From Micromonospora arida (lineage in GTDB: Bacteria > Actinomycetota > Actinomycetes > Mycobacteriales > Micromonosporaceae): a DNA stretch of 64,000 nt. How positions within the stretch are numbered: the stretch's first letter is position 1; the number at the start of each line of letters is the position of its first letter. The position numbers and the translations under genes are program-made. The stretch covers positions 1-64,000 of the forward strand of contig NZ_QGSY01000330.1 of the NCBI RefSeq assembly GCF_003857035.1, read 5' to 3'. This document shows, one piece after another, positions 139 through 38,854 of the stretch. Under the pieces are notes generated by a model. That model ran no database searches, was not told where the DNA came from, and saw nothing but the letters and a program-made list of their open reading frames with translations.

Positions 139-1890
139 TCATGCGCGCACCGCCTCCGTCATCGCATGCCGCGCTTGCGTGACGACCTGCCACAGCTCGG
201 TGAAGCCGGGTGGCAGCAGTCGCCTGCCGTCGCCGCTGGCCTCCAGGCGGCTGACGAGCCGGGCCAGGTCGTCGAGTTGTTGCGGACGGTCAACGAGAGC
301 GTTGAGGAGCAGTTCGAAAATCCCAGTTCCGCTGCTACGCCACGCGCCGGCCCCGCCAGCGTCGCCGCTCACCAGCATGGCGGCATCAGTGCCGAGGCCG
401 AGCATCAGCAGCAGGAATCGCAGGAACTTCTCCGGCGTGTCGATCTGCTGGGCGATGACGTGATCGAGGCGGTGCACGGGATCGCCGACCAGGGCGGCGA
501 CAATGACGGCTTGTCCCCGGCCGCTGCTGTCCTCGGCGGAGACGATGACGAACGGGGTGATGTCGACCAGCGCAAGCCCGGCGAACTCTGCGTCGACCGG
601 CTGTCCCGACGCGAGCACGATCGCCTCACCGCGGCGAGTGTGTAGCTGCGAGGTGATCCGTACCCCTTGCACATTGGGCACGGTGTCTTGGGAGGTCACC
701 CGGAGGCGGTAGCTGTCTGCCTCGGGCATGACGGTAGCTAGCATCGGAATTGCCGCGAGGTCGCGGACCAGATTACGGAGACGGTCCGCTTCGGGATCCG
801 GTTCGGCGACGTTCTGGCGTTCGTAGGGTTCGAGGATCTCGCGAAACGCTGCCTTCGGGCCAAGGAGAGCATCGATACCCCACTGGGCGCGGCCACCTAC
901 CAGCTCCACCATTAGCTCGACGTTGCCGTCGAACGCCGCACCTGTGGCATTTGCGGAGCCGAGGAGAACCCGCGCCTGATGGCCCTTCTCCACCACGTAC
1001 ACCTTTGCGTGCAGCCCGCTGAGCACCTCCTGGCCCGACGGCGACTCCTCAGTCGGCAAACCGGCCAAGGCGTTCACCACGAACGTCTCAGAACCGGCCA
1101 GGCTCTCCTCGGGCAGACAGTCGAAAGTCTCCTGCCGGCTCACCAACGCCAGCTTGCCGCTCGGTGCGCACCGGCCCAGACCCTCGGGCGTGCAGAACGG
1201 CGAAATGACCAGGTGACGTGTGCCTGCGAAGTCCGGTAAAGGAGTACGAGGAACTCCTAGCGCATGGAAAAACATCTCCCGAGCGCCGTCGGGGTACTCC
1301 CACGCGGCTCGGCGTAGATCCTCGCCCAGCGCCTCGACCGCCGCCTGCCGGTCCGGCGGCAGGGGCGCGACCGTCAGCCGCAGCGTGTGTTGTAGCAGGT
1401 CGAACAAGGGCTTGTTGCCCGCCACCCGGCGGGTGCCGGGGTAGCCTTCCAGGCGCAGGCACACGTCCCAGCTGCGGTCCTTAGTCAGGTTGCGACTGAG
1501 CACCAACAGCCGCAGCGACGTCTCCCCGGTCGCTTCGTCCTCAAAACGCAGCGCCCACAGCTTTGGGTGGAACAGCCGACCCGGCTTGGGCCGGCGCACC
1601 TGGTGCACCATTGGCTCGACAAACGCCAGCAGCGCTGACTTCGTCGGTGGAACCGCGATCTGCCCCGCCTGACAGAACACGTCGATCCTGTCGGCGCACT
1701 GCCGTACACCCTCCATCACCGCAATCGGGTCGGTCGTCTCGCGTAAGCCGTGCGCGGCGAAGGCCAGCGGGGCGACCAGCAGACTCTCCAGATCCAGGGT
1801 GAAGGTCAACGCCACGGCGCGGGACATCCGCATACCCGGTGGCGGGCGCAAGGCATCGAGCAGCAGCGAACGAGTGTCAGGCGCGAGCAT
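139..1890 (-). CDS. PLD-like (HxK) domain protein of a DUF429-DUF6361-PLD module
   Basis: 583-aa protein. Two phospholipase D-type half-motifs are visible: FHPKLWAL near residue 107 followed by LVLSRNLTKDRSWD, and LHAKVYVV near residue 291 followed by LLGSANATGAAFDGNVE. A pair of HxK(x)nN/S motifs is the hallmark of the PLD superfamily, whose members include phosphodiesterases and nucleases. The remaining ~250 C-terminal residues are unassigned. The chosen ATG (MLAPDT) overlaps the end of the DUF6361 gene by 14 nt, implying translational coupling; an upstream in-frame start would need a much longer overlap. Last gene of a three-gene set. PLD-type nucleases occur in several phage-defence systems (for example DISARM DrmC), so a defence role is possible, but this is inferred from context and not shown by the sequence. 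Confidence 0.8.
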   Translation of the reverse strand: MLAPDTRSLLLDALRPPPGMRMSRAVALTFTLDLESLLVAPLAFAAHGLRETTDPIAVMEGVRQCADRIDVFCQAGQIAVPPTKSALLAFVEPMVHQVRRPKPGRLFHPKLWALRFEDEATGETSLRLLVLSRNLTKDRSWDVCLRLEGYPGTRRVAGNKPLFDLLQHTLRLTVAPLPPDRQAAVEALGEDLRRAAWEYPDGAREMFFHALGVPRTPLPDFAGTRHLVISPFCTPEGLGRCAPSGKLALVSRQETFDCLPEESLAGSETFVVNALAGLPTEESPSGQEVLSGLHAKVYVVEKGHQARVLLGSANATGAAFDGNVELMVELVGGRAQWGIDALLGPKAAFREILEPYERQNVAEPDPEADRLRNLVRDLAAIPMLATVMPEADSYRLRVTSQDTVPNVQGVRITSQLHTRRGEAIVLASGQPVDAEFAGLALVDITPFVIVSAEDSSGRGQAVIVAALVGDPVHRLDHVIAQQIDTPEKFLRFLLLMLGLGTDAAMLVSGDAGGAGAWRSSGTGIFELLLNALVDRPQQLDDLARLVSRLEASGDGRRLLPPGFTELWQVVTQARHAMTEAVRA

Positions 1891-3109
1891 TCGCAGCCTC
1901 CGACAGGTCAGCGGCGCAGCCCTCGTGGATGTCGACGAGGATCCGGCGGACTTGAGGCCATCGATACACCAGCGGTCGACTGCCGGAGGCACCACTCCAC
2001 GTACGCAACAGCTTGTCGTTGATCAACCGTGACTGCCCCTTCTTCACCGCCCGTTCCCGCTCGGCCACGAGATTGCGCAGGCTCTGGTCCGTGGCGGCAT
2101 CGCTCGCAGTTCCGCTCGTGACCGCGTCAAGCCAGCGGTCGATGAACCGGCGCGCAGCGGCGTTCGTGGCTATTCGGGGGTTCCTCTCGATCAACCGGTC
2201 CCACATGCCCGACCGGTCCCAGCCCTTGAGGCCCTGTTCCTCCGACACGCGCTGGTTCCAGCCCGACAACTTGTCTCGATATCGGGCCACCGGCGCCTCA
2301 CGCTCGGTCAGACCGGTCTCCTCGTACCGCTCCGCCACGAGGAGGTTGTACAGCAACGCCGCGCCGCGGATCGCCAGCGAAAACAAGGCGGCGTCCCGTA
2401 CCAGCGAGCTGATCGGATCCGGCGCGGCCAGCACCGCCGGCTCCTCCCATGGTGCGTCGCTGTCCCAACCGGGTCGATGTTCGGGCTCAAGGAGGTACGC
2501 CAACAATGTGCCGGGCGCCGCAGTGAGGATCCGCTCTCGCAGCCAACGGCCCTCATCCGGCGTTAGCCTCAATCCACCCTCAACCTCGTCTGGAAACTTC
2601 GTCGGTCGGGCCGGCAGCGTCGGGTGCCAGATCCCGCTCGCTCGTTCCGTCAGCTCATCGGCGTCGGCCAGTCCGGCCAATCGGCGGTTCGATGCGCCCT
2701 CATCGTCACCAGTGCGGATGCCGTACTCGAGCAACGCCGCCGCATAAATGCTCGACGGCAGCGTCTGTACCCCGACACCAGCCCGGCGACCGATCACGCC
2801 CTCCGTGTCGTCGCCTCGCAGCAGCGCGGCGATCACCTTTCGTTCGGTGCGGTCCACTTGCGCAGTGAGACGGTCACCGTGCAGTCCACGCCGCTGCGCC
2901 TCCTGGTAGCACCACGGCACGATCAGTAGGTACCGCGCCCGGGCCTGCAAAACGGAGGTGCCAGGGAAGAGTAAGTCGCTGAACGCGTCCCGGACCTGGC
3001 CGATGCCCAGCTCGTCCCGGCTTTCCGTGTCGCTGAAGAGCTTGAGTAACTCCCGCATTCGGTGTTGATCGTCGCGGGAACTGTCCAGCCAGCTCAGTCC
3101 TGAAGCCAT
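1877..3109 (-). CDS. DUF6361 family protein
   Basis: 410-aa protein. The N-terminus (GLSWLDSSRDDQHRMRELL, then ELGIGQVRDAFSDLLFPGTS and RARYLLIVPW) fits my recollection of the DUF6361 family. Function unknown; no catalytic motif recognised. The ATG is preceded by GGAGGG at a good distance and lies 13 nt after the stop of the DUF429 gene. The end overlaps the PLD-like gene. The three adjacent genes, all on one strand and without obvious metabolic context, look like a self-contained accessory module. Annotation by family resemblance from memory; an HMM search would settle it. Confidence 0.75.
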   Translation of the reverse strand: MASGLSWLDSSRDDQHRMRELLKLFSDTESRDELGIGQVRDAFSDLLFPGTSVLQARARYLLIVPWCYQEAQRRGLHGDRLTAQVDRTERKVIAALLRGDDTEGVIGRRAGVGVQTLPSSIYAAALLEYGIRTGDDEGASNRRLAGLADADELTERASGIWHPTLPARPTKFPDEVEGGLRLTPDEGRWLRERILTAAPGTLLAYLLEPEHRPGWDSDAPWEEPAVLAAPDPISSLVRDAALFSLAIRGAALLYNLLVAERYEETGLTEREAPVARYRDKLSGWNQRVSEEQGLKGWDRSGMWDRLIERNPRIATNAAARRFIDRWLDAVTSGTASDAATDQSLRNLVAERERAVKKGQSRLINDKLLRTWSGASGSRPLVYRWPQVRRILVDIHEGCAADLSEAANARA

Positions 3110-3122
3110 GGGTACCCTCCGG

Positions 3123-3878
3123 TTACGCTGCTGCCAAGTCGAGAAGGCCGGCGAGAGGGTAGGTAGGCAGCGCGATCCATCCCTCGGAACGCGCGGCGAC
3201 CCGCTGCTCGTCGTCCGGCCTGCTCGCCTTGCCGGTCGCTGCGGCACGGGCAACCAACGACGCGACCACCGAGTCGAACGCATCATGGCTACGCCGGACC
3301 AACGCCTCGAACGCTCCAAGCTCCAGCCAGGGCGCGGCCGCACACAATGCGGTGACGAGTTCGGCGTGCTGGGCCTGCTGACGGCGCCCCTTGTAACCGC
3401 GATGCGCTAAGCCCCAACGGTTCAAGGCCGCTGCCGGGTACACCTCAACGATCTTGCCGTCGCCGCAACGATCGACATCCTGACCATCGGCGGCCAGCAT
3501 CGCCAGCAAACCGGCGCAGCGGAAGGCGGCGTGCCCGATGCGGTCTGCAGCCACGCTGAGGGGGATGATTTCGGTCTCCTTGCGTACCACCTCGTCAGTC
3601 TGGCGATAGGCCAAGCGACGCCGCCACGGCGCGCCGCCACCGTCATCGACGGTTACATGACTGGCCTGATGGGCCGTAACGAGTGCGACGAATGGCTCTG
3701 GCCAACCGAGCGGACAGTCCAACCCGATTTTGTCCCCGCGCCGACTCGCTTCGACGATCCGAGCGTCACTGACGTCAAGGACTACCTCCCGTACCACTGC
3801 CCGGCCTGGTAGCCACTCGATCACGGCCATCGCCGTACGTTTGTCTGCGGCTGCGAGGTCAACGCCGAGGGTTAACAC
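3123..3878 (-). CDS. DUF429 domain protein (predicted RNase H-fold nuclease)
   Basis: 251-aa protein starting at GTG. It begins with GVDLAAADKRTAMAV, an acidic residue on the first strand of an RNase H-like fold, followed by GLDCPLGWPEPF and a C-terminal AFDSVVASLVARA; these match DUF429, a family predicted to be nuclease-like from its fold. First gene of the module with DUF6361 and PLD-like proteins 13 nt downstream. If catalytic, the aspartates in GVDL, GLDCPLG and FDSVVAS would be the metal ligands. Role unknown. Two predicted phosphodiester-cleaving folds in one three-gene operon make a nucleic-acid target plausible, but this is inference. Confidence 0.8.
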   Translation of the reverse strand: MLTLGVDLAAADKRTAMAVIEWLPGRAVVREVVLDVSDARIVEASRRGDKIGLDCPLGWPEPFVALVTAHQASHVTVDDGGGAPWRRRLAYRQTDEVVRKETEIIPLSVAADRIGHAAFRCAGLLAMLAADGQDVDRCGDGKIVEVYPAAALNRWGLAHRGYKGRRQQAQHAELVTALCAAAPWLELGAFEALVRRSHDAFDSVVASLVARAAATGKASRPDDEQRVAARSEGWIALPTYPLAGLLDLAAA

Positions 3879-7741: not shown

Positions 7742-8896
7742 TTAGGTATCTATAGTTGTCATCGACAAGCGTCGCCATTGATCTCCGACAACTTTTTCGA
7801 TGCGGACCGCCTCGCTCGTGGCCATCGATCCCAGTCGCGCATTCGCGAGATCTACTGATTGAGGGATATGTTCTGCCCACGGTGGTAGCAGAGACCAAAG
7901 GGGTCGTATTCGGGCCCCCCGCCGGACCTTCGCCTCGTAGGAGCTCACTCCGAGGTTCAACCGTGGTATCCCGCGCTGATAGCAAAATTCGAGTGGGGCA
8001 TGTACGGCTAGCCGCGCGTACTCGCCGACACCGGGCAAGGCTTCGTAGTCGAAGCCGACGCCGCGGAAGCTCAGTTCTCCCGCGGTCTTGTAGAACAGGG
8101 AGAAGGCGACTAGCCGATCGGCCAAAAAGCAGCCGAACACGACGGCGTCCTCGTCCAGCATGGCTGCTTGGCGAGCGAGAGAGTCAGCATAGACTTCGCT
8201 CGGGCTGTGGTCGCCGTACTTTCGCTGCACGTTGGCCAGCAATGGTGCCAGGTCTCGCCAGCTCTCAGAGAGGCGCAACTCCTCGACTCGTAAGGGGCTC
8301 CTGTCAAACCGCGCAGCTTCACGGCGGTAGTGGGACCGTCTGTTGGCCGTCGGTAGGGCTTCCACGTGGTCCTCAACGCTCGAGCCTGCTAGGTCAATGA
8401 CACAGTCTGCGCGGGCGAGCCGCACGCGGGGCCGGCGAATGCTCCCGTGGAGTAGACTCGCGCGGAGCACTGATTCAGCATCCTCGAACAAAAGATATGG
8501 CCACCAGCAATCACGTTCCGGGGTCGCTGTCTCTATGGCGCGAAGCAGCTTGGCCAGCGCGGATTCTACGACATCGGATGGGAAACGCTGGTTGCGGATA
8601 AAGCCCGACAGGTAGCCCTGCCGGCCGCCGAGGAGCGCGGGTGGCGAGCGGTGGGATGTGTCGACATCGAACAGAGCGTTGAAATTGTATGCCCTGCTCA
8701 TCAGGGATAGCGGATTATGCGATGAGACGCCCGCAACCAGGGAGCCGTCGGCATACGCGCCCCAGTAAGTGCCTCGCCCGCGGGCGTCCGAGTCGACATA
8801 AGTCAACCAGCGAGGGTTCAGATAGAAGGTTTTGTCGATAGCGAGCTCGCCCCATCCGCATAGATCTGCCGCGCGCTCGGCTTGCGTGATGTTCAT
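7742..8896 (-). CDS. FemAB/GNAT-6-like acyl or aminoacyl transferase
   Basis: 384-aa protein. The C-terminal half (NRRSHYRREAARFDR around residues 185-200, VFGCFLADRLVAFSLFYK, then LNLGVSSYEAKVRRG) resembles the Acetyltransf_6/peptidogalycan-biosynthesis group of GNAT-fold enzymes, related to FemAB transferases that add amino acids from tRNA. The substrate is unknown. It starts 2 nt after the ATP-grasp stop, so the two are translationally coupled. As the last gene of the operon led by the MSYDH mini-gene, it is a candidate tailoring enzyme, for example acylating or aminoacylating the peptide. That role is inference. Codon third positions are less GC-rich than in the rest of the window. Confidence 0.7.
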   Translation of the reverse strand: MNITQAERAADLCGWGELAIDKTFYLNPRWLTYVDSDARGRGTYWGAYADGSLVAGVSSHNPLSLMSRAYNFNALFDVDTSHRSPPALLGGRQGYLSGFIRNQRFPSDVVESALAKLLRAIETATPERDCWWPYLLFEDAESVLRASLLHGSIRRPRVRLARADCVIDLAGSSVEDHVEALPTANRRSHYRREAARFDRSPLRVEELRLSESWRDLAPLLANVQRKYGDHSPSEVYADSLARQAAMLDEDAVVFGCFLADRLVAFSLFYKTAGELSFRGVGFDYEALPGVGEYARLAVHAPLEFCYQRGIPRLNLGVSSYEAKVRRGARIRPLWSLLPPWAEHIPQSVDLANARLGSMATSEAVRIEKVVGDQWRRLSMTTIDT

Positions 8897-8898
8897 CC

Positions 8899-10131
8899 TC
8901 AGTTGCCTTGGGGTTCGACGATGACCGAGACGCCCCTCAGCAACTCGTCGGCTCGTTGGTCGGCCGACGTCTCGTCCGTGGCGGTGACGATGAAGTAGCC
9001 GACGCGCGCGCTGTTGCTGTCCGGACTGGCCACCGATGCGCCGATCTCGGTGGTCACCTCGGAGAAGGGCACGTTGACTCCGGTGCAGGGCATGCCCTGC
9101 ACGGCGAGGAGCCGGCCGCCGCGTGGTGCCAGGGGACGCCTGATGGCCGCGAAGGCACGCCGAGTCGGGGCAAGTTCAACCGGTTGCCCTAGGGCGACCG
9201 CCAAGGCCGCTCCGGCCATGTCAATTTCAAGGGCCAGGCTGGTCAGCAACGTGATTCGGCCACCGCCGATCCGTGGAGCGATCTCCAGCACCACCCATGC
9301 GCCATCCGGTTTCCGCTTCACCTCGCAATGTGACCAGCTATTGCGTATACCCGTTGCTGCTGCTGCCATCGTCACCTGCTGCAGAACCTGTTGCCTGGCG
9401 ATCGGATCGAGGTTCGACGGGAGAGTGTGACCCGTTTCGACACGGTAGGCACCAGAGGTGGTCTGCTTCTTGGTGATGCACACGTGCTCGGTCTGGCCGT
9501 CCTGCGTCAGCGATTCGACGCTGAACTCCTCCCCGTCGATGTACTCCTGCACCACCACACGGGGGTCGAGGTGGATCCCATACGGTCCACGCTGCAGTCG
9601 TACACGTTGGAACGCCGCGGTCAGCTCGTCCAGCCGTTCCACCACGCTGACCCCCGTTGAGCCGGCGTTCTCGGCAGGCTTCACGACAAGCGGAAATGAG
9701 AAGGTCTGGCGACGGAGGTGATCATAAACCTCTTCTTCGCCGGTCACCGCAATCGTCGATGGCACAGCAACTCCGGCTACATGCAGCCGCTCGACCATTG
9801 TGATCTTGTTTCGAGCTGCCATGGCGAGCGTCGCATCATTTCCGGGAAGACCCAAAGTCGCACAGGCGAGTGCTGCGACCGGGGTGAGGAACTCGTTCAC
9901 GGTGACGATCGCGTCTACCCTCCGGGAACGCGCGAACGCGACGATGTCTGAGACTGCCGCTTCGTAGGAGGAAAAGTCCACGACAACGGTGCCGGCGACC
10001 TCCCTCGGCGTTGTCGCAGACGCTTGGCCGCGCGGTGTAGCCGTGTATACCTCATGCCCCGTGGCGATGGCCGCCTTGAGTAGGTCCTCACGGTCAGGGC
10101 CGGACACATCCAGGAGCATAACCCGATTCAA
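8899..10131 (-). CDS. ATP-grasp carboxylate-amine ligase
   Basis: 410-aa ATP-grasp enzyme. Visible motifs: FPLVVKPAENAGSTGV (residues 146-161, ATP-binding lysine and glycine-rich loop), VVQEYIDGEEFSVES (193-207) and VLEIAPRIGGGRI (281-293, metal-binding acidic region). The N-terminal ~100 residues form the usual Rossmann-like preATP-grasp domain. The family activates a carboxylate as an acyl-phosphate and couples it to an amine. Gap of 47 nt after the MFS gene; coupled to the next gene. In this setting it could ligate an amino acid or amine to the Asp side chain or C-terminus of a short peptide, or make a dipeptide. The substrate cannot be read from the sequence. Confidence 0.9.
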   Translation of the reverse strand: MNRVMLLDVSGPDREDLLKAAIATGHEVYTATPRGQASATTPREVAGTVVVDFSSYEAAVSDIVAFARSRRVDAIVTVNEFLTPVAALACATLGLPGNDATLAMAARNKITMVERLHVAGVAVPSTIAVTGEEEVYDHLRRQTFSFPLVVKPAENAGSTGVSVVERLDELTAAFQRVRLQRGPYGIHLDPRVVVQEYIDGEEFSVESLTQDGQTEHVCITKKQTTSGAYRVETGHTLPSNLDPIARQQVLQQVTMAAAATGIRNSWSHCEVKRKPDGAWVVLEIAPRIGGGRITLLTSLALEIDMAGAALAVALGQPVELAPTRRAFAAIRRPLAPRGGRLLAVQGMPCTGVNVPFSEVTTEIGASVASPDSNSARVGYFIVTATDETSADQRADELLRGVSVIVEPQGN

Positions 10132-10178: not shown

Positions 10179-11429
10179 CTAGCCGTGCCGAAGGTTGTAA
10201 ACGGAGCGGGAAAGTAGCGGAAGAAGCGCCGCCGCGAGAAACAGGATGCCACCGACCAGGGCGACCTGCTCATTGCCGAATATGGCGCCGGCAGGGGCAG
10301 CGCACATCATCCCAATGGGAACGGTGACGTACGAAAACAAGTCGTCGTAGGAAGTTACCCTGGACAGGACGTTGTTCGGAACGTGTTCTTGTAGCGAAGT
10401 TTCCCAGGCGGGACCGAACATGCCCGAGCCGATTCCAGCCATGAACGCCGCGATGAAGAGCCATAATGCGTTGGCACCGACCCCGAGCGCGATGAGGGGG
10501 AGGCACCCCAGCGCGAAGAACAGTTGGCCGGTGCCGAGTAAACGTCTCACCGTCAATCGGTACATCACAAGTCCCATGACCAGCAGGCCTACCGCACGCG
10601 CGCTAAGGACCCCACCCCACGAAGCAGCCCCGATGGTGGTGATAGCGATAGCTGGGCCAAGAACAACCCAGATCCCGGTTTTGAGGAGATTGGTAACCGC
10701 CAGGGAGGCAACCACGGACCAGACCCAGGGGATACTGCGGAACTCGCTCCACCCTTCGCGTACGTCCGACAGGACGCTGCGGGAACTGCGGGCGATCTCT
10801 TCGGTTAGGCGGATGCGGGAGATGAAGAACGCGGCCAGTAGGTAGCTGGCCGAGTCGAGCGCGATCGCCCAACCGCCGCCGACCGTGGCGACCGTGATTC
10901 CCGCCGCAGTAGGACCTAAGATCGTTATTGCATTCTTGGACGAGGCGACAAGGGAGTTCGCCCGTCGCATCTGTGCCTTGGCTACCAGTTGGGGAATGAT
11001 CCCCCGCATGGCGGGCTGAGTGAACGCGGTCAGGGAGCCGTTGAGAAATTCAAGAGCGATGATGAGCATGAGGCTGTACCGGCCCGAGAGCAGCAGGAAA
11101 GCGACGACGCCTTGAGTGGAAGCAGCTCCGAGGTTCGACAGCTTAAGGACCGTGCTCCGTGGGAATCTGTCGGCCACAGCACCGCCGACAAGGAGGAATG
11201 CCACTAGCGGAATGCTCCGTGCGGCTAACACCCAGCCCAGGTCGTATACGCTGCTCGAATGCTCGAGCACGGAGAATGCCAAGGCTACCGGGGCCATCGC
11301 CGTGCCCAAGAGGGAGACGGACGTACCGGTGAAATACCATCTGAAGCCTGAGGTCCACAGTGTGGTCTCGGCATGACCGGTATCCGCCTCCGCAGGCGCG
11401 TCCATTCCTTGCTGCTGCAACTCTTTCAT
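10179..11429 (-). CDS. MFS transporter, probable exporter
   Basis: 416-aa integral membrane protein with about 12 hydrophobic segments and the MFS loop 2-3 pattern (GGAVADRFPRS near residues 83-93). An N-terminal cytosolic stretch carries the acidic DAPAEADTG. It belongs to the drug-exporter-like (MFS_3/enterobactin exporter type) group by general appearance. It follows the MSYDH mini-gene and its hairpin by about 60 nt, and precedes the ATP-grasp gene. Likely role: export of the cluster product and self-protection. The ATG at 11429 has only a weak ribosome-binding site; an in-frame ATG eight codons later is an alternative. Confidence 0.85.
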   Translation of the reverse strand: MKELQQQGMDAPAEADTGHAETTLWTSGFRWYFTGTSVSLLGTAMAPVALAFSVLEHSSSVYDLGWVLAARSIPLVAFLLVGGAVADRFPRSTVLKLSNLGAASTQGVVAFLLLSGRYSLMLIIALEFLNGSLTAFTQPAMRGIIPQLVAKAQMRRANSLVASSKNAITILGPTAAGITVATVGGGWAIALDSASYLLAAFFISRIRLTEEIARSSRSVLSDVREGWSEFRSIPWVWSVVASLAVTNLLKTGIWVVLGPAIAITTIGAASWGGVLSARAVGLLVMGLVMYRLTVRRLLGTGQLFFALGCLPLIALGVGANALWLFIAAFMAGIGSGMFGPAWETSLQEHVPNNVLSRVTSYDDLFSYVTVPIGMMCAAPAGAIFGNEQVALVGGILFLAAALLPLLSRSVYNLRHG

Positions 11430-11492
11430 CCTTCATGAGGAACAGGAAGTCCGAGGGTCCGGGGTAGTAGACCTCGGCGGGTCAGTGAACCT

Positions 11493-11526
11493 CTGTCGGG
11501 CCCGGCGTGGTCGCCGAGCCCGACAG
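11493..11526 (-). terminator. Hairpin after the pentapeptide gene (partial terminator or attenuator)
   Basis: Inverted repeat CTGTCGGGC-x-CGGCG, loop of 4, CGCCG-x-GCCCGACAG: 14 base pairs with one internal mismatch. It begins 10 nt past the mini-gene stop and there is no U-run. Such a structure between a RiPP precursor and its enzymes commonly gives excess precursor transcript over downstream message. It could equally serve attenuation control of the MFS gene. Confidence 0.75.
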
Positions 11527-11535
11527 GCCTCAGGC

Positions 11536-11553
11536 TCAGTGGTCGTAGCTCAT
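11536..11553 (-). CDS. Candidate minimal RiPP precursor, pentapeptide MSYDH (biarylitide-like)
   Basis: An 18-bp open reading frame, ATG AGC TAC GAC CAC TGA, encodes Met-Ser-Tyr-Asp-His. It is preceded by AAAGGAGGTG, a 10-nt match to the 16S anti-Shine-Dalgarno, with 5 nt between this match and the ATG. That is the strongest ribosome-binding site in the region, and no longer frame uses it. Known biarylitide precursors are also 18-bp genes (MRYYH and relatives) whose Tyr3 and His5 are crosslinked by a P450. MSYDH keeps Tyr3 and His5 but has Ser2 in place of the usual Arg. A P450 gene lies divergent about 0.9 kb away; export, ligase and transferase genes follow on the same strand. Alternative: a regulatory leader peptide for the MFS gene. 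Confidence 0.7.
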   Translation of the reverse strand: MSYDH

Positions 11554-11558
11554 GATTA

Positions 11559-11568
11559 CACCTCCTTT
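11559..11568 (-). promoter_or_regulatory. Very strong Shine-Dalgarno of the MSYDH gene
   Basis: AAAGGAGGTG is fully complementary to the 3' end of 16S rRNA and lies 5 nt (TAATC) before the ATG. Just upstream, a short inverted repeat (GGGGA ... TCCCC around 11573-11588) might form a small hairpin near the site. Confidence 0.85.
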
Positions 11569-11570
11569 GT

Positions 11571-12472
11571 GAGGGGAGATTTATCCCCGGGCGCCCTGGG
11601 GCGTCTCCGGTGGCATGGGCGTCCGCAAGGGCGCGATAATGTTCAACGCGGCCTATGGCTGTTTGAGAACCGACGGGAGCTGCTGCCCGATTGCTCAGCA
11701 TCGTGGCTGTAGTCGACACGCTGATCGCCGGCTCACGCCGTACGCCATGGCGACGAAAGGCGAGGACCCTCGGGCGCCCATTTATTTCAAACACGAGCTT
11801 GAAGTGAATGGGCGAATCGTAGTCGTTGCCGACTAGCACGGCGCTGTCTACCGACACTTGGGCATGGACGTAGACATCGATCTAGAGCGTAGCCAGCTTC
11901 GCCAGAGAAGAGCGCTCGCGGCCTATGGCTGGCGCGCGTAGCTTAGGCGAGCTTCTAAATAATGATCAACCATCACGCACTACCCCCGTGGTGTCATGTC
12001 GGCCTAGGTAATTCCTTGATCGCGTGACGACTGCAGATTTGCATCGTTCCGCGACTAGCGTCAAGAGGCACTTCTATGAGAGTGCCTCGGATGTGACCAC
12101 GTCATGCATAGCAAGGTCGGCCGACGACTGAAAGAGACCACCCTCTGTTAATCGGTGAATCCCTGGGGCCGCCAACCAGCCTGACGCATGTGGCACAGTA
12201 ACCCGGACGGTTGCCTGGGGCAACCCCCTAGCCAGGCGCGAGGACGTTTCCGCAGATGGGAGACCATTAATCAAGGAGATACAGGCAGTCTCACCGGTAA
12301 ATTTCTTTCGCCCGCAGCCTGCGTCGTTGACAACGATGTCCAGCCGGTCGTAGCGTCACGTCAGTACCGATCACGGAGTCGGGTCTGGGACAAGCTGTCA
12401 ATTGACCAGGCTCGGACGCGTCGTTATGTCGCGCACATTGCGCACGGGGAACCCATCAAAAGGGGTGGCAAT
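11571..12472. promoter_or_regulatory. Divergent intergenic region between MSYDH operon and P450
   Basis: About 900 nt with promoters presumably for both directions. Open frames here on either strand lack ribosome-binding sites and are interrupted. The base composition is notably AT-richer than elsewhere in the window. An AAGGAG at about 12273 on the plus strand has no start codon at a usable distance. I see no second Tyr-x-His pentapeptide here. Confidence 0.45.
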
Positions 12473-13636
12473 TTGTCTACAGCCGTGGAATACGACCCTC
12501 TGTCTCCAGAAATGCTCGCCAACCCGTATCCTCAGTACGCTCGGTTCCGTAGAACAGCGCCCATCTTCTGGCACGAGGGCATGAAGTCATGGGTGCTCAG
12601 CCGGTATCAAGACTGCCGCGACGTGCTGCGCGACAACGACACGTTCGCGCGAGACCGCCGGCGGGTAGGGGCGGAGCTGCCGGAGTTCCTGCAGAACATC
12701 CAGACGATTGATCCACCGGACCAAGGACCACTGAAGAGCGTCCTAATGAACGCCCTGCGTTCTCAAGACCTTGACACCGCTGGCGCCCAGGCACGGGAGC
12801 AGATCACGGGGATCTTCGCGGACCTCGCGCGGCGTGAGCGCTTCGATTGGATCAAGGAGGTCGCCGCTCCGGTCGCCCTCACGATCACCTCGCACTTGTT
12901 CGGAGTGCAGCGCCCCGACCTGCAGTGGTACGTCAAGTTGTCGGACTCCATCGCCCGCCGGATGGATATCGGGCTGCGCCCCGAACGAGCGGCAGTCGGG
13001 AACGATGCCCGCACTCAGCTCAACTCGTTAGTCGACCAGTGGTACGCCGCCGAACGACGGCCTGGCGTGTTCGCCACCATCCGGGAGACCGCCGGCCAGC
13101 TCCAGGTTCCGCCGCACTACGTGCACAACACCGCAGGTGTGATGTTCAACGCGAGCTACGGGACCCTTTTTGCGACGGTCAGCAACATTGCCCTGACACT
13201 GATCGAACGACCTGAAACGCTCAATGCCCTGCGCGGGGCAGACCGCAAACTCCTCGATTCCGCTACTGACGAGCTGATCCGCTTCGAGGGGCCGGCCCAG
13301 GGAACTAGTCGCGTCGCTACTGAGCGAACGGTCATCCATGGCACGACGATCGAGCGTGGGCAGATCGTGCTGACCCTGATGGCCTCCGCGAACCGCGACG
13401 AGACCGAGTTCACGCGTCCGGATGAGCTGGTGCTGGATCGATCGCCTAACCGGCATCTGTCGTTTGGCTGGGGCGTTCATGGCTGTCTCGGAGCAGCCTT
13501 CGGCAGGGTGGCGGTTCGCGAGCTGATTCTATGCTTGACCGAAGCCCCTCGGCTGCGGCTAGCTGGCACACCGGTGCGACGGACGACGGCAACGGTCCGA
13601 AGCCTCGATTCATTGCCGGTCTCCTTCACCGCCTGA
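12473..13636 (+). CDS. Cytochrome P450, candidate peptide-crosslinking enzyme
   Basis: 387-aa class I bacterial P450. The heme-ligand loop FGWGVHGCLG sits near residues 331-340 (Cys about 338), the ExxR motif ELIR near 267, and the substrate-side N-terminus (NPYPQYARFRRTAPIFW) is typical. In the I helix the usual A-G-x-E/D-T reads ASYGT: the threonine is kept but the acid is replaced by glycine. Loss of the acid-alcohol pair is frequent in P450s that couple radicals rather than hydroxylate. The chosen TTG start has AAAAGGGGTGG 5 nt upstream; the frame continues upstream to 12188 without another good site. Divergent from the MSYDH operon, it is the natural candidate to install a Tyr-His crosslink (inference). 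Confidence 0.88.
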   Translation: MSTAVEYDPLSPEMLANPYPQYARFRRTAPIFWHEGMKSWVLSRYQDCRDVLRDNDTFARDRRRVGAELPEFLQNIQTIDPPDQGPLKSVLMNALRSQDLDTAGAQAREQITGIFADLARRERFDWIKEVAAPVALTITSHLFGVQRPDLQWYVKLSDSIARRMDIGLRPERAAVGNDARTQLNSLVDQWYAAERRPGVFATIRETAGQLQVPPHYVHNTAGVMFNASYGTLFATVSNIALTLIERPETLNALRGADRKLLDSATDELIRFEGPAQGTSRVATERTVIHGTTIERGQIVLTLMASANRDETEFTRPDELVLDRSPNRHLSFGWGVHGCLGAAFGRVAVRELILCLTEAPRLRLAGTPVRRTTATVRSLDSLPVSFTA

Positions 13637-14918: not shown

Positions 14919-15794
14919 TCAGTGGGGTGGCAGTGGTGCGGCCGGGCGTACGGCTGTGAAGTCGGCGTGTTCGTACCGGGTGGCGGAGAGCAGTAGCAGC
15001 CACTCGTCACAGCCCTGCCACGGGTATGAATCGGCGGCTCCGCCGCGTACGGTCCGGGGCCCGTCTCCGGTCCGCGGTCGCGCGGTCGACGGTGCGCCGT
15101 CGAACCCGGGGATCCACACGTCGGCGCAGAGCTCGTTCGCCGAGCCCATCGCCGCCAGCCCGAACGCGTTCTCGCCGACGGCCGTCCGCGTCTCGTCGCC
15201 GAAGTCGTCGAGAAGCTGGTCCTCGTCGGGTTTCCCGTCACCCCGGAACGTCAGCGTGGTGGTGCCGGCCCGGGCCGCGTATTCCCACTGCGCCTCGCTG
15301 GGCAGGTCGAACGGCAACAACTCGAGCAGGCACTCCAGGTCGCCTTCGAGCCGAGCCGTGCCGGTGTCCGCCTCGGCGTAGTCGTCTTCGTACTCGGGCA
15401 GCCAGTACCGGACCTGCGCCACAGTCAGCGGGTGCCGGGCGAGCAGGAACGACTCGACGTGCACCTCGCGTACCGGTTGTGCGTCCTTAGCGCTGGCAAG
15501 GAACGGGTCGATGGTGTCCTCGACACCGCCGCTGCGCTCAATGGCGCGTACCGCATCGAGCTCCGCATCGGACAGCCCCATCCGGAACGCGCCGCCCAGA
15601 ACCTCGCGAAACACGACCCCCGACGGGATGTGCCGCCACGCCGGTCGCCCGGCCACGACCTCCTCGGTCCACATGGCGGCGAACGCTAGCAGCCAACCCG
15701 TCCGGTGATCTCTCCCGATGCCCCGCAGCTCGCGCTCGATCGTGCTGCCGTCACGTACCCCGTAGCAGTTAGCCGCACACGTTGCGGAAGCCAA
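14919..15794 (-). CDS. Formylglycine-generating-enzyme-like (SUMF1 fold) protein
   Basis: Up to 291 aa. FGE/SUMF1-type landmarks occur in order: FREVLGGAFRMGLSDAE, LLARHPLTVAQVRYW, LPSEAQWEYAARAGT, NAFGLAAMGSANELCADVW and TVRGGA, then QGCDEWLLLLSATR and a terminal AVRPA. In family members this fold converts cysteine to formylglycine or, in EgtB/PvdO relatives, does other oxidations. Only one cysteine occupies the usual C-terminal position (GCDEW) and the normal GFR end is degenerate, so sulfatase activation is doubtful. The start is uncertain: ATG at 15794 or an internal ATG at 15674. No sulfatase is nearby. Confidence 0.7.
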   Translation of the reverse strand: MASATCAANCYGVRDGSTIERELRGIGRDHRTGWLLAFAAMWTEEVVAGRPAWRHIPSGVVFREVLGGAFRMGLSDAELDAVRAIERSGGVEDTIDPFLASAKDAQPVREVHVESFLLARHPLTVAQVRYWLPEYEDDYAEADTGTARLEGDLECLLELLPFDLPSEAQWEYAARAGTTTLTFRGDGKPDEDQLLDDFGDETRTAVGENAFGLAAMGSANELCADVWIPGFDGAPSTARPRTGDGPRTVRGGAADSYPWQGCDEWLLLLSATRYEHADFTAVRPAAPLPPH

Positions 15795-15868
15795 CGCGAG
15801 GAGGGCAGGAGCTCGCCCGCAGGTTGGGTGTCAAATGAGAGCCGCCGGTCGACCGGCGGAAACAGCGG

Positions 15869-16006
15869 TTGTTGACCTTCACACGTGACGAGGTCGGCCG
15901 CCGCGTCTGCCCGCGCGGCGCGATGACCTGGTCGGTCAACTGGGACGTGACGAACGGCAACCGCTTCGCCAACACGGTCGGCCCGCACCTGGACGCGCCG
16001 CCCTGA
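15869..16006 (+). pseudogene. C-terminal remnant of a GH18-type chitinase
   Basis: The frame ends with RGAMTWSVNWDVTNGNRFA and NTVGPHLDAPP before TGA, closely resembling the last strand and helix of actinomycete family 18 chitinases. The rest of the gene is missing upstream, where minus-strand sequence of the FGE-like gene begins. A truncation left by recombination. Confidence 0.6.
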
Positions 16007-16017
16007 GACCGGCACCG

Positions 16018-16050
16018 CCGGCACGGATCCCGCAACGGGATCCGTGCCGG
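16018..16050. terminator. Perfect 15-bp bidirectional terminator hairpin
   Basis: CCGGCACGGATCCCG and its exact complement are separated by CAA. It sits between the chitinase remnant (plus strand) and the end of the secreted-protein gene (minus strand), and would serve both. Confidence 0.9.
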
Positions 16051-16059
16051 GTGGGCCGA

Positions 16060-16530
16060 TCAGATGAACGTGAGCGAGCTGAAGAACGCCGGGTAGCAGT
16101 CGACATAGATGTCGTAGACGCCGGGCGGCACGTGCACGGGGCCCAGGGTGGCCCCGTTGGAGCACCGGGCGCTGACCGCGGTCGTCGGCTGGCCGGTGAG
16201 GGTGCAGCCCTGGAACACGATCAGCCACGGGTCGATGTACTGCCCGGCGTACGGGCAGGAGCCCGACATCACCGAGAAACCGCCGCCCTTCGCCGGTGAG
16301 GCGGCGGTCGCCGTCGACGTCGTGACGCTCAACGTGCCGGCGGAGCTCGCCGATGCCCGCTCGGCTCCGATGGCGGCGACAGCCGCGTCGCCGCTCGGCG
16401 CGGGTGCCGCGACCGCCGCGGACGGTGCGGCCATGAACGCGGCGAGCATCGCCGTCGCGGCCAACAGCAGACTGGATGCGCGGAGAATGCCGGATCGTGC
16501 TCCGGCGGAGGGTCGACTACGCCATGTCAT
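16060..16530 (-). CDS. Secreted hypothetical protein
   Basis: 156 aa with a Sec signal peptide: basic start (MTWRSRPSAGARSG), hydrophobic core (ASSLLLAATAMLAAFMA), and an AVAA-type cleavage site before APAPSGD. The mature part holds an Ala/Ser/Thr-rich linker and a small domain with four cysteines (SGSCPYAGQY, FQGCTLTGQ, SARCSNGAT, YVDCYPAF), probably two disulfides. The start has GAGGTGG upstream. No family recognised. Confidence 0.7.
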   Translation of the reverse strand: MTWRSRPSAGARSGILRASSLLLAATAMLAAFMAAPSAAVAAPAPSGDAAVAAIGAERASASSAGTLSVTTSTATAASPAKGGGFSVMSGSCPYAGQYIDPWLIVFQGCTLTGQPTTAVSARCSNGATLGPVHVPPGVYDIYVDCYPAFFSSLTFI

Positions 16531-16779
16531 AACCAGAACCACCTCTCGATTGCTGTGCGATCTGCGGATGCCGGGGCGCGTACCTGGTCGCGCCCGAACC
16601 GGCCGGGCCGTCGTCTGACGTCTATGGCGAAGCGTTCCAGGGTTCCGGTGGCCGGGTCTTCGTGATATTGCGAGAACCGGGTCGCGGGCGTACCCCGGTT
16701 CTTGCGAATGTCCGCAAGGCTGTCCGGTCCGCGTCAACCGGGCGGCGTGGCCGGAACGCATCGATTACCGTTGACCGGC

Positions 16780-17946
16780 ATGGGCGGTCTGTTCAGCCTG
16801 TGGCGGCAGCGAGTGGCCGACAACGCGCGCCGGGCGGTGGACGCCTACCAGGAGGAGCTGCTGGAATACCGCAACCTCGCGGCCATGCCGCAGGTGCGGT
16901 CGGAGATGCTCGATTTCGCGGTCTTCCTCCGTCAGCGCACGGTCGACCTCGCGGCGGACAGCGCGCCGTTCCACGTGCAGGATCTGGACCTGATGGCCGC
17001 GATGGGCCGCCAGCGCGGCGAGAAGGGACTCACCCTGACCGCGCAGCGGCAGGTGCTGCTCGTGCACACCCGGCTGACGCTGCGCGAGGTGTACGAGGCG
17101 GCCGGCCCGAACGACATCGCTGCGACGATGCACACGCTCGCCTGGCTGGCTCCCGCGGGACTGGCCGCCCAGGGCGCGTACACCCGGGGCTGGATCGAGG
17201 GGCAGCGGCGCGCGCTGGCGACCGTCGCCCAGGTGCGGCTGCTGACGGTGATGCTGCTGGCCGGCGACGACAGCGCGACCGACCTGGCGCGCGGCCTGCA
17301 CATGCCGGTCCCCGATCACGTCGTCGCGACGGTGGTCCGGGTGGCTGGCGGGTCGCCCGGGCCGGACCAGGCGGCGCGGGACGAGTTCGCCGGCGCGCTG
17401 TTGAAGATGCACTGGATGCCGCTGAGCTGGCCGGAGCCGCACGAGGTGGTCGCGCTGATCCCCAGCTCGCCGGGCGGCCGGCAGCCGGCGGTCGAGCGCG
17501 GGCTCGCGCTGGCCCGCGATGTGGCCTCGATGACCGGCCGGCCGTGCGCGGCCGGCACCGCGCCTGGGCGGGTGCGCGCGTTCGGCGACGCCGTGGCGCT
17601 GGCCCGGCAGGTCAGCGAGGTCGCACCGGTGCGGGCCGTGCCGCGCCACGCGTACACGGTCACCGACGTCTTCGCCGAGCTGGGCGCCGCCCGGCTGGCG
17701 GAGGTCGGGCAGTGGCTCCAGGTGGTGGCGGCGCAACTTGACGCCGGCCCCGACCTGGTCGCCACGCTGGACGCCTACTACCAACACGACATGAACCGGC
17801 TCGACACCGCGGCCGCGCTGTGCATCCACCCGCGCACGCTCGACTACCGGCTGACCCGGGTGCGCGACCTGACCGGGCTGGAGGCGGGCTCGACCCGCGG
17901 CGTACGCGTGCTGAGCACCGCCGTCGCCCGGATCCTCGCCGGCTAG
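16780..17946 (+). CDS. PucR/CdaR-type transcriptional regulator
   Basis: 388 aa. The C-terminus DTAAALCIHPRTLDYRLTRV with the following RDLTGLE is the helix-turn-helix typical of PucR/CdaR regulators (HTH_30). The middle region is a degenerate GGDEF-like ligand domain as in that family, and the N-terminus resembles the RsbRD-type input domain. No ribosome-binding site precedes the chosen ATG, so the transcript may be leaderless. The target is unknown; no catabolic gene is adjacent. Confidence 0.75.
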   Translation: MGGLFSLWRQRVADNARRAVDAYQEELLEYRNLAAMPQVRSEMLDFAVFLRQRTVDLAADSAPFHVQDLDLMAAMGRQRGEKGLTLTAQRQVLLVHTRLTLREVYEAAGPNDIAATMHTLAWLAPAGLAAQGAYTRGWIEGQRRALATVAQVRLLTVMLLAGDDSATDLARGLHMPVPDHVVATVVRVAGGSPGPDQAARDEFAGALLKMHWMPLSWPEPHEVVALIPSSPGGRQPAVERGLALARDVASMTGRPCAAGTAPGRVRAFGDAVALARQVSEVAPVRAVPRHAYTVTDVFAELGAARLAEVGQWLQVVAAQLDAGPDLVATLDAYYQHDMNRLDTAAALCIHPRTLDYRLTRVRDLTGLEAGSTRGVRVLSTAVARILAG

Positions 17947-18123
17947 ATCAGCAGCCGGGTGAGCTCCATGTTCTTCATACTGATGTAGCTCAGCTTGTTA
18001 CCGAACGCATCGAAACCTGTAGCGAGCTGATCATGCCGGACGGGCATGTGGGGCTCGAGAATTGGGTTACGTCGGCTGAGCTGCAGTTCGCTCGACATCG
18101 ACCTGGCCGACACGATGAAGGCC

Positions 18124-19158
18124 ATGAGCACATCGCTGATGTACCTGCTGCTTCGCCAGGTTCTGCAGATGTTGTCCCAGCTCGCCGTCGGCGTTCTTCG
18201 TCACCCCAGCGACACTGCTTCGGTGGCATCGGGAGCTGGTCGCGCGACGATGGACCAACCCGCATGCCCGGCCGGGCCGGCCGCCGGTCGACAACCGGGT
18301 CCGTGGGCTGGTGCTGCGCCTGGCGGCGGAGAACCCGACCTGGGGCACCAGCGCATCCAAGGTGAGCTGGCCGGCCTGGGCTACCAGGTGGCGGCCAGCA
18401 CCGTGTGGAAGTTCCTCCACCAGGCCGGCATCGACCCCGCGCCGCGGCGGTCCGGGCCCACCTGGCGACAGTTCCTGACCGCCCAGGCCCACACGATGCT
18501 GGCATGTAACTTCTTCACGGTCGACACCGTGCTGTTCAAGCGGGTCTACGTGCTGTTCTTCGTCGAGATCGCCACCCGCCAGGTCCACGTCGTCGGGGTG
18601 ACCGCCCATCCGAACGGCGCCTGGGTAGCGCAGCAGGCGCGCAACCTGCTGTCGGACCTCGACCAGCGGGTGGCCGAACTGCGGTTCCTGCTCCGCGACC
18701 GGGACACGAAATTTACGGCGGCCTTCGACGCGGTGTTCACCGCCGCGGGCATCGACGTGATCATGACTTCGCCGCAGGCACCGCGGGCGAACGCGTTCGC
18801 CGAGCGCTGGGTGGGCACCGTACGCCGGGAGTGCACCGACCGGATGTTCATCGTCGGCGAGCGTCATCTGGCGGCGGTCCTCAGCGAATACGTGGCCCAC
18901 TACAACGGCCACCGCCCGCATCGTTCATTGGACCAGCAGCCACCGAGTCGGCCGCCGGAGGTCGTAGACCTGACCACCGCCCGGGTCCAGCGACGCCCAA
19001 TCAGTCTCGGGACGTGGGTGACACGTCCGGCTAGTGATGGACACAAGTGCTGTGTCAATGGCTGGTCCGCAACATCTCTACACTGCCCGCGTGACACTGC
19101 AGCCGTACGACCGTGGAGTGCTCGCTGTGCAGCGCGGGGCCTTCGGGGAGGCGCGTGA
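18124..19158 (+). pseudogene. Degenerate IS481-like (integrase-core) transposase
   Basis: It begins [20 protein letters not shown], a characteristic start of this actinomycete transposase group. A deletion then joins QLA to sequence that reads [21 protein letters not shown] only in another frame. A second 1-nt loss near 18345 (in [12 protein letters not shown]) restores the original frame. The DDE core follows: FFTVDTVLFKRVYVLFFVE, LLRDRDTKFTAAFD, PRANAFAERWVGTVRRE. The C-terminus after RVQRRPI is replaced by unrelated sequence. About 50 residues of the helix-turn-helix region are scrambled and the 3' end is lost, so activity is unlikely. Confidence 0.8.
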
Positions 19159-37709: not shown

Positions 37710-38854
37710 CGCGGTTCCCGGACGGCGTCGGGGATCCGTGCCGGATCGGCGCGGTGCGGGCGCAGGAGCTCGTGAACCCGGGCCGGGCCGGTCGGTGGCT
37801 GAGCGTCCACGCCGACCCGGTTGACGACCGCGATCTCGGCCCGGTCGATGTCGCGGTGCCAGCCGACCACCTCCTGCATGAACCGGCCGTCCGCCCCGCC
37901 GAGCAACCGGCCCAGCTCGGCGGCCGCGGCCCGTCCCACGTCGTCCGTCCGGGGTGGCCGCGCCGGGTCGACCGGCCCGGCCCGCAACGGACCGCGGTAG
38001 GTGGCGGCGTGCGAGTGCCCGTCGTGGTCCACCCGCCGGATCGGCACGGGTGGGTCGGCGCCGCCGGGCAGTGCCAGCGCGTCGACGTCGAGCCCGCGCG
38101 CGATCACCTCGAAGAGCCCCCCGGCGCCCACCTCGAACTCCCACGAGTGCAGCACGACGAACGGGGTCGGCGTGGCGGCCGAGGCCGACAGCAGCGCCTC
38201 CCGGCCCTCCATCGAGATCAGGCAGGCGGTGTACGGACCGGGCTCGGTCGGCAGCCGGTTCGCCACGACGACTGCGAACCAGCCGTCGTCGTCGCCCATC
38301 GCGAGCTCGGTGTCGGCCACGTTCACCTGTCGGACGTGGCTGAGCAGGCCGACATCGGCCTTCACCGGCAGGAGCCCGGCCTGGGTGATCGGATCGGTGG
38401 CGAGCAGGACGGCGACGTCCGGCCCGTCGCCGTCGATGTCGCCGGCCGCCGCGAGGGTGGCAAAGTGCTGCTCCCCGACGGCCTCGCGCAGGGGGCGCGG
38501 GGCCAGCACGGTGGCCTCGTCAGGGCGGACCACGAGCAGGACCAGCCACGGTGTGCCGTCGCTGAACCGACGTTCCCACGGCAGTGTGCGGCGGGTCAGC
38601 GCGATGTGCGGCAGCCGCTGGCCGTATGCGCCGATCGAGCCGGGCGCCGGGTGGACGGCCGCCACATCGGACGGCGACAGGGCGAACCGCGGGCCGGCCA
38701 CCTCGATGAAGGCGTCGTGCACCGGCGGGGCGGCCAGCGTGTCATCGGCTGATGCGACGGCGAGCGACGAGCGCACCCGGTAGACACCGGCCGTGATGTC
38801 GGGCACCACGCTGTCGTACAGGCGGATGCTCCCGATCGGGAGGGTCTCGGTCAT
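37706..38854 (-). CDS. Unknown 382-aa protein of the DUF6603 operon
   Basis: Starts MTETLPIGSIRLYDSVVPDI at an ATGA overlap with the 3075-aa gene. It contains FIEVAGPRFALSPSDVAAVH, WLVLLVVRPDEATVLAPRPL and FVVLHSWEFEVGAGGLFEVI. No signal peptide, membrane helix or known motif. Translational coupling at both ends suggests a fixed stoichiometry with its neighbours. Confidence 0.75.
   Translation of the reverse strand: MTETLPIGSIRLYDSVVPDITAGVYRVRSSLAVASADDTLAAPPVHDAFIEVAGPRFALSPSDVAAVHPAPGSIGAYGQRLPHIALTRRTLPWERRFSDGTPWLVLLVVRPDEATVLAPRPLREAVGEQHFATLAAAGDIDGDGPDVAVLLATDPITQAGLLPVKADVGLLSHVRQVNVADTELAMGDDDGWFAVVVANRLPTEPGPYTACLISMEGREALLSASAATPTPFVVLHSWEFEVGAGGLFEVIARGLDVDALALPGGADPPVPIRRVDHDGHSHAATYRGPLRAGPVDPARPPRTDDVGRAAAAELGRLLGGADGRFMQEVVGWHRDIDRAEIAVVNRVGVDAQPPTGPARVHELLRPHRADPARIPDAVREPR

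Follow-up and report, generated by a model that had tools for sequence, protein, structure and literature searches.

A conserved MSYDH minigene in Micromonospora arida and its probable place in a biarylitide-type locus of the Asp4 class

The window, as we call the whole 64-kb stretch of Micromonospora arida DNA that was analysed, quite probably holds a biarylitide-type RiPP locus of the Asp4 class with the pathway proposed below. Its 18-bp minigene for MSYDH and the nearby cytochrome P450 are regarded as a biarylitide-type pair because the peptide is conserved beside P450s of one family and the P450 of the window lies inside the P450Blt/RufO group. The minimal precursor with a dedicated P450, as proposed by the sequence-only reading, is thus supported by both the conserved frame and the P450 family. 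Conservation of the precursor, the family of the P450, and an exporter and a ligase common to related loci were shown by sequence comparison. The features of the locus are the following:

7742..8896, minus strand: GNAT-like protein, Acetyltransf_6, PF13480 (Pfam 28.4 bits, cut-off 22)
8899..10131, minus strand: ATP-grasp ligase of the L-amino acid ligase type (ATP-grasp_4 and LAL_C2)
10179..11429, minus strand: MFS exporter (Pfam MFS_1/MFS_3)
11486..11532, minus strand: strong RNA hairpin without a U tail, directly 3' of the MSYDH stop codon (-38 kcal/mol, z -5.05)
11536..11553, minus strand: precursor minigene MSYDH, 18 bp, ATG AGC TAC GAC CAC TGA (start at 11553, stop ends at 11536)
11559..11568, minus strand: Shine-Dalgarno sequence AAAGGAGGTG, 5 nt (TAATC) ahead of the MSYDH ATG
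12473..13636, plus strand: biarylitide-family cytochrome P450 with a TTG start, likewise TTG in M. foliorum

The minigene and its surroundings

The sequence, spacing and reading frame first described by eye proved exact, with the minus strand as the coding one, and the neighbours named with them (MFS exporter, ATP-grasp ligase, GNAT-like protein and P450) were all found by Pfam. The minigene heads the minus-strand row of MFS, ATP-grasp and GNAT genes, and the P450 gene is divergent from it, with 919 nt from start codon to start codon. The strand, this distance and the strong hairpin behind the stop codon were absent from the first description. An 18-bp gene of the form MxYxH/Y with a ribosome-binding site, as in biarylitides, is therefore present, and its P450 lies on the opposite strand and beyond the limit of about 500 bp set for the distance between precursor and P450. 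That limit is a matter of arrangement and no chemical criterion, and it was relaxed later, the distance being given as 1.4 kb for MRYWY clusters in the text of PMC13417212. The sigma-70 promoter scan found none, and the single terminator-like site lies on the + strand, immediately ahead of the P450.

That the minigene is a short ORF present by chance behind a good ribosome-binding site, or a part of the overlapping 143-aa ORF at 11426-11857, is extremely improbable. The pattern ATG-xxx-Tyr-xxx-(His/Tyr)-stop was observed once in the window against 0.01 expected from 200 first-order Markov simulations, and once against 0.00 expected per 64 kb when a Shine-Dalgarno match of at least 8 nt was included; the Shine-Dalgarno sequence together with the MSYDH gene occurs as a single copy in the 7.15-Mb genome, according to a whole-genome pattern search. 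The 143-aa ORF runs in a different frame from MSYDH, and its dN/dS of 0.84 and nine gap columns against M. foliorum indicate that it is under little constraint.

The same locus is present in M. foliorum PSH25, whose P450 is 98% identical. All 33 bases of the Shine-Dalgarno sequence and gene (11536-11568) are identical there, a comparison of low power because the adjoining 60-base blocks are 93–97% identical too; so are all 48 bases at 11488-11535, and 945 of 1048 positions agree over 11430-12472. The four neighbouring proteins are under purifying selection, given their dN/dS against M. foliorum: 0.08 for the P450, 0.09 for the MFS exporter, 0.28 for the GNAT-like protein and 0.32 for the ATP-grasp ligase.

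Elsewhere in the window, a 3075-residue open frame (38851-48078) has a DUF6603 domain as its sole Pfam match at E 1e-5. A protein with an FGE-sulfatase domain (14919-15794) and an integrase-core (rve_3) protein (18046-19158) both lie near the cluster, and the region around 14919-19158 may be a mobile island. At 139-3343, a DUF6361 protein adjoins one whose PLD-like match is below threshold, and the two are possibly a defence pair.

Pentapeptide genes beside P450s of the family

Both the heme motif FGWGVHGC and the ExxR motif (ELIR) were found in the P450 of the window. Against the PDB, the ten best distinct sequences gave E values from 5e-79 to 3e-65, and the next group followed at 1e-36; entries 8SPP, 9DUJ and 9EBY are RufO, and 8U2M is P450Blt with a peptide, according to the text of PMC12186263. 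Profile searches, in which the best four or five candidates per genome were scored and whose counts are therefore lower bounds, gave at least 11 matches with E ≤4e-100 in at least nine of 394 genomes of the class (the next value being 3e-76), and matches with E ≤ 1e-80 in at least 39 of 394 Streptomycetaceae genomes and at least 20 of 354 Micromonosporaceae genomes. The tree was built from 44 family rows (aligned P450 stretches) and three outgroups, L048, which is broken, and L124, a duplicate, being omitted. The P450 of the window falls within a 10-row clade with support of 100/99, and the branching order among the larger clades lacks resolution. By these sequence comparisons it is a P450 of the BytO/P450Blt type and belongs inside the P450Blt/RufO family, grouping with its relatives in the phylogeny that the earlier reading had named as a check.

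The scan for PENTAPEPTIDE covered 46 family loci to a distance of 2 kb from the P450, or of 1.5 kb where they were given as 4-kb loci. An M-x-(Y/H)-x-(H/Y) minigene with a ribosome-binding site was found in 40 of them, or in 39 of 45 when L071 and L124, which are one place, are counted once. No minigene turned up when 57 loci of P450s outside the family (323 kb) were scanned likewise. MSYDH itself occurs in 13 of the 46 loci (window, L032, L044, L045, L047, L048 and L101-L107), with AGC, TCG or TCC as the codon for Ser2, and accompanies P450s of the biarylitide family in M. foliorum, a further Micromonosporaceae genome and Streptomyces. The pentapeptide frame is thus kept across the family loci, as the proposal required. 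Residue 4 is D, N or S in the clade of the window and D in all ten rows of a second MxYDH clade (the Asn and Gln clades, respectively, after the I-helix residue discussed below); other residues occupy this position in the remaining P450 rows, two MRYDY rows excepted.

Among the six loci without a candidate, L108 has MTYDH at 1.7 kb, L109 has MIYNH at 9 kb and L111 has the seven-residue MRYDHCL; no minigene was found in L095 and L112/L133 even after a wider look, nor in the 4 kb covered for L118. Dropping the Shine-Dalgarno filter in 20 family loci added one candidate, VTHGH in L094. Loci collected later contain MSYDH (L159) and the GTG-started VFYDH (L160) and VRYLH (L153), and no pentapeptide candidate was found near the P450 in L151/L165.

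Several of the loci deserve a separate description. In L130 the MIYNH minigene (397-414) lies about 9 kb off its P450; the cluster also contains Pgm1, an amidinotransferase and an MFS gene, and the minigene escapes any search limited to 3 kb. The candidate MRYDHCL of L132 (~10711, minus strand), just upstream of a family P450 and with a strong ribosome-binding site, keeps Asp4 and His5 and has two extra residues after His. L095 and L133 hold related P450s with the I-helix QSGYSS and no short precursor near, the P450 of L095 adjoining an MFS gene. MSYDH and a matching MFS exporter are kept beside a broken P450 and adjoining NRPS genes in L100 (23566-25775, a plasmid of Streptomyces sp. NBC_00557), and occur with no P450 match in L161 (9906-11412). 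The P450s of L131 (MDYSH), L134 (two copies of MSYNH) and L165 (precursor none found) lie near NRPS-like genes and possibly have a rufomycin-like supply role. A P450 50% identical to that of the window accompanies an MNYNH precursor in L043, a Bacillus arachidis plasmid, together with two ATP-grasp genes, a PLP enzyme, a methyltransferase and an FGE-like protein, with an IS6 transposase gene between.

The pattern ATG NNN TAY GAY CAY TRA (MxYDH*) was also sought in 394 Streptomycetaceae genomes with P450s ignored, which gave 12 matches in 12 genomes, the reversed control giving none among the matches listed. Eight of the 12 adjoin a separately found family P450 (G686, G687, G758, G769, G805, G813, G881 and G923), the exporter next to MSYDH of G836 shares 95% identity with the L048 exporter, and MAYDH of G877 adjoins two short matches to the gene bordering the L046 cluster. 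The other two matches lack a family context and are what a chance origin would have in its favour: MAYDH of G1019 has no recognised Shine-Dalgarno sequence and no P450-family or cluster context, and MRYDH of G484, at the end of a contig, has no known neighbours. Against such an origin stand the expectation of at most 0.01 per window, the absence of minigenes from the 57 non-family loci and the conservation across bacterial families. Judged by these comparisons, the MSYDH minigene is not due to chance and is a conserved gene; an 18-bp gene read by eye has in this way been confirmed, and it belongs to a class that escapes gene finders.

None of 200 shuffles reached the stability of the hairpin at 11486..11532, which is likely an attenuator, a terminator or an RNA stabiliser ahead of the exporter gene; Rfam gave no match close to any gathering score. 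Of 38 minigenes from 37 loci, 21 are followed by 50 nt that fold with z ≤ -2.5 (60 shuffles each), so a hairpin at this place is common, yet not universal. MSYDH could then be read as a regulatory leader peptide and no precursor, the position of the ribosome controlling the hairpin and hence MFS expression. In the window, L048/L100 and L159 the minigene is followed by a hairpin or inverted repeat and then by the exporter, which fits such a role, as does the pairing of minigene and exporter in L161, where the P450 is unmatched. However, the P450 is next to the minigene in eight of the 13 MSYDH loci (L044, L045, L047 and L101-L105), an amidinotransferase is next to it in two (L106/L127 and L107/L128), and residue 4 tracks the P450 clade; we regard a leader peptide as quite improbable. 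If MSYDH is a precursor, the hairpin would probably raise its message above those of the downstream enzyme genes.

The I-helix residue, the neighbouring enzymes and the proposed pathway

According to the text of PMC12951456, cross-linkers forming C-N bonds carry an I-helix His (His234 in P450Blt), those forming C-C bonds carry Val or Leu, and a His-to-Val change inactivated P450BytO. The pattern in our alignment fits this description: rows with MRYLH, MKYWH or MRYIH carry His, those with MRYYH carry Val and those with MRYAY carry Leu. The P450 of the window has Asn226 at this column, and Asn is found in all ten rows of its clade and Gln in all ten of the second MxYDH clade; the 15 MxYDH rows divide into five Asn and ten Gln. 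L159 has Asn and L160 Gln. Asp4 by itself does not account for Asn or Gln, because the two MRYDY rows have Leu, and neither residue alone is a class marker, since one outgroup P450 also has Asn, and L049, L095 and L112 have Gln. The bond type of the two clades is not predicted by the published rule (His for C-N, Val or Leu for C-C), and cross-linking by the P450 of the window is not to be assumed, given Asn226 at the C-N His position and the loss of BytO activity on the His-to-Val change (PMC12951456, text). One locus suited to comparing the two types is L171 (8731-11119), in which a single MQYDH precursor accompanies two consecutive family P450s, the I-helix of one being of the Asn type and that of the other of the Gln type.

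The MFS exporter is 67% identical to the exporter in the same position in L159 and 54% to that in L100. The closest solved relatives of the ATP-grasp ligase are BL00235 and BacD; ligases of other MxYDH clusters are 40–50% identical to it, and the ATP-grasps of the Pgm1-type clusters L044-L047 and L094 40–45%. ATP-grasp genes about 43–46% identical to that of the window also occur on the Streptomyces plasmids L060, L061 and L062; the L060 and L061 stretches contain no annotated P450 and both ATP-grasps adjoin an APH gene, that of L060 also an amidinotransferase-like gene, and the L062 stretch is without annotation.

The GNAT-like protein at 7742..8896 (PF13480) presumably resembles FemAB-type transferases. 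The searches made found distant relatives only besides the M. foliorum protein, and among 25 loci compared it is present in the window and M. foliorum only. Its single PDB match by phmmer, at E 0.38, was too weak to be of use, and the AlphaFold2 model from a 2-row alignment had a mean pLDDT of 30. Plasmid relatives (11 records, 27–36% identity) were set aside as too distant for the argument; in L063, the one record whose surroundings were viewed, the next gene is an ATP-grasp.

In the proposed pathway, the 18-bp gene would be translated into MSYDH, as its conservation suggests, and the P450 (12473-13636) would bind the peptide and link Tyr3 to His5 with the loss of 2 H, as expected from its family. 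Met-Ser might then be cut off by a housekeeping peptidase, by analogy with myxarylin (PMC12951456); the clusters of characterised biarylitides are described in the text of that paper as being without a dedicated protease. From the gene content, the Tyr amine exposed in this way in cyclic Tyr-Asp-His could be joined to an amino acid or another acid by the ATP-grasp ligase; one more acyl or aminoacyl group could come from the GNAT-like protein, and export of the product would fall to the MFS protein. A more far-reaching version, which we put forward tentatively and consider rather doubtful, is that in a Micromonosporaceae Asp4 branch the Asn-type P450 makes a new bond type and cyclic Tyr-Asp-His is extended by the L-amino acid ligase and a FemAB-like transferase, without the Pgm1/guanidine route. 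If true, a ribosomal core would be lengthened by non-ribosomal, NRPS-free ligation.

Alternatively, the P450 might nitrate or hydroxylate the pentapeptide, which would then serve as a carrier, in the way that the Tyr of MRYLH is nitrated by RufO to provide a building block. RufO is a member of this P450 family (PMC12186263, text), and some family members adjoin NRPS-like genes (L131, L134, L165). Nevertheless, NO synthase was unmatched in the genome, the PF02898 control matching two of 14 genomes, and Pfam found no NRPS domain in the 22 distinct window proteins scanned, which makes this role unlikely.

Comparison with known systems

The pentapeptide class is already known, because Padva et al. 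2026 (PMC13417212) describe Asp4 clusters: their text counts 277 biarylitide clusters, 47 of them with Asp4 and a Pgm1 homologue. The sequence-only reading had taken the Ser2/Asp4 precursor as new, which does not hold, as MSYDH recurs in the 13 loci given above and Asp4 precursors have already been published. A literature search for 'MSYDH', with figures and supplements outside its scope, returned one unrelated decoction paper, and no absence is claimed from it.

Like the Asp4/Pgm1 clusters of that survey, the window combines an Asp4 pentapeptide with a biarylitide P450, and it has a homologous LAL-type ATP-grasp in common with L044-L047 and L094. Unlike in those clusters as the text describes them, Pgm1 and the amidinotransferase were not found, a GNAT-like protein is added, and the precursor gene comes first in the exporter row and points away from the P450. 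Neither Pgm1 nor the amidinotransferase had a match in the genome of the window (G000), M. foliorum (G052) or G1041, which are drafts from which a contig may be missing; both were matched by the same searches in the positive controls G116, G769 and G813. No Asp4 cluster without Pgm1, with a LAL ATP-grasp and a GNAT, and with divergent arrangement appears in the text of PMC13417212, whose Table S1 may list one; separation of precursor and P450 is called unique there to six MRYWY clusters in their set.

The P450Blt system of Micromonospora sp. MW-13 (MRYLH) agrees with the window in genus, P450 family, precursor length, Tyr3 and His5, and differs in residues 2 and 4 (Arg2/Leu4 against Ser2/Asp4). 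The P450 of the Micromonospora relative L004 (MRYLH) is 35–36% identical to that of the window, with the I-helix HAGYES against NASYGT. RufO, which supplies 3-nitrotyrosine for rufomycin, has the P450 family and the pentapeptide logic in common with the window, whose system differs in having no NO synthase match and other I-helix residues. The I-helix motif of RufO is His-x-x-x-Glu-Val (His235, Glu239 and Val240; PMC12186263, text); the window has Asn-x-x-x-Gly-Thr, and the RufO nitration motif is absent, as aligned to HAGYES relatives with RufO itself outside the alignment.

The nearest arrangement is that of L159 in the Micromonosporaceae genome G1041, with the gene row P450-MSYDH-inverted repeat-MFS-ligase-TauD-ligase and identities to the window of 62% for the P450, 67% for the MFS exporter and 50% for the last ligase. 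It has in common with the window the P450, MSYDH, MFS and ATP-grasp genes and the unmatched Pgm1 and amidinotransferase, and differs in that all its genes lie on a single strand and that the GNAT is replaced by a TauD dioxygenase and another LAL ATP-grasp. L171 (G274), with MQYDH and two P450s, has an ATP-grasp 38% and an exporter 54% identical to those of the window.

Asp4 is not explained by Pgm1 and the amidinotransferase alone, because it is kept here and neither enzyme was found; the window locus thus separates Asp4 from Pgm1, which occur together in the text of the 2026 survey. What is unusual here is the set of enzymes around MSYDH and the separation of the minigene from the P450 that probably ties the ring.
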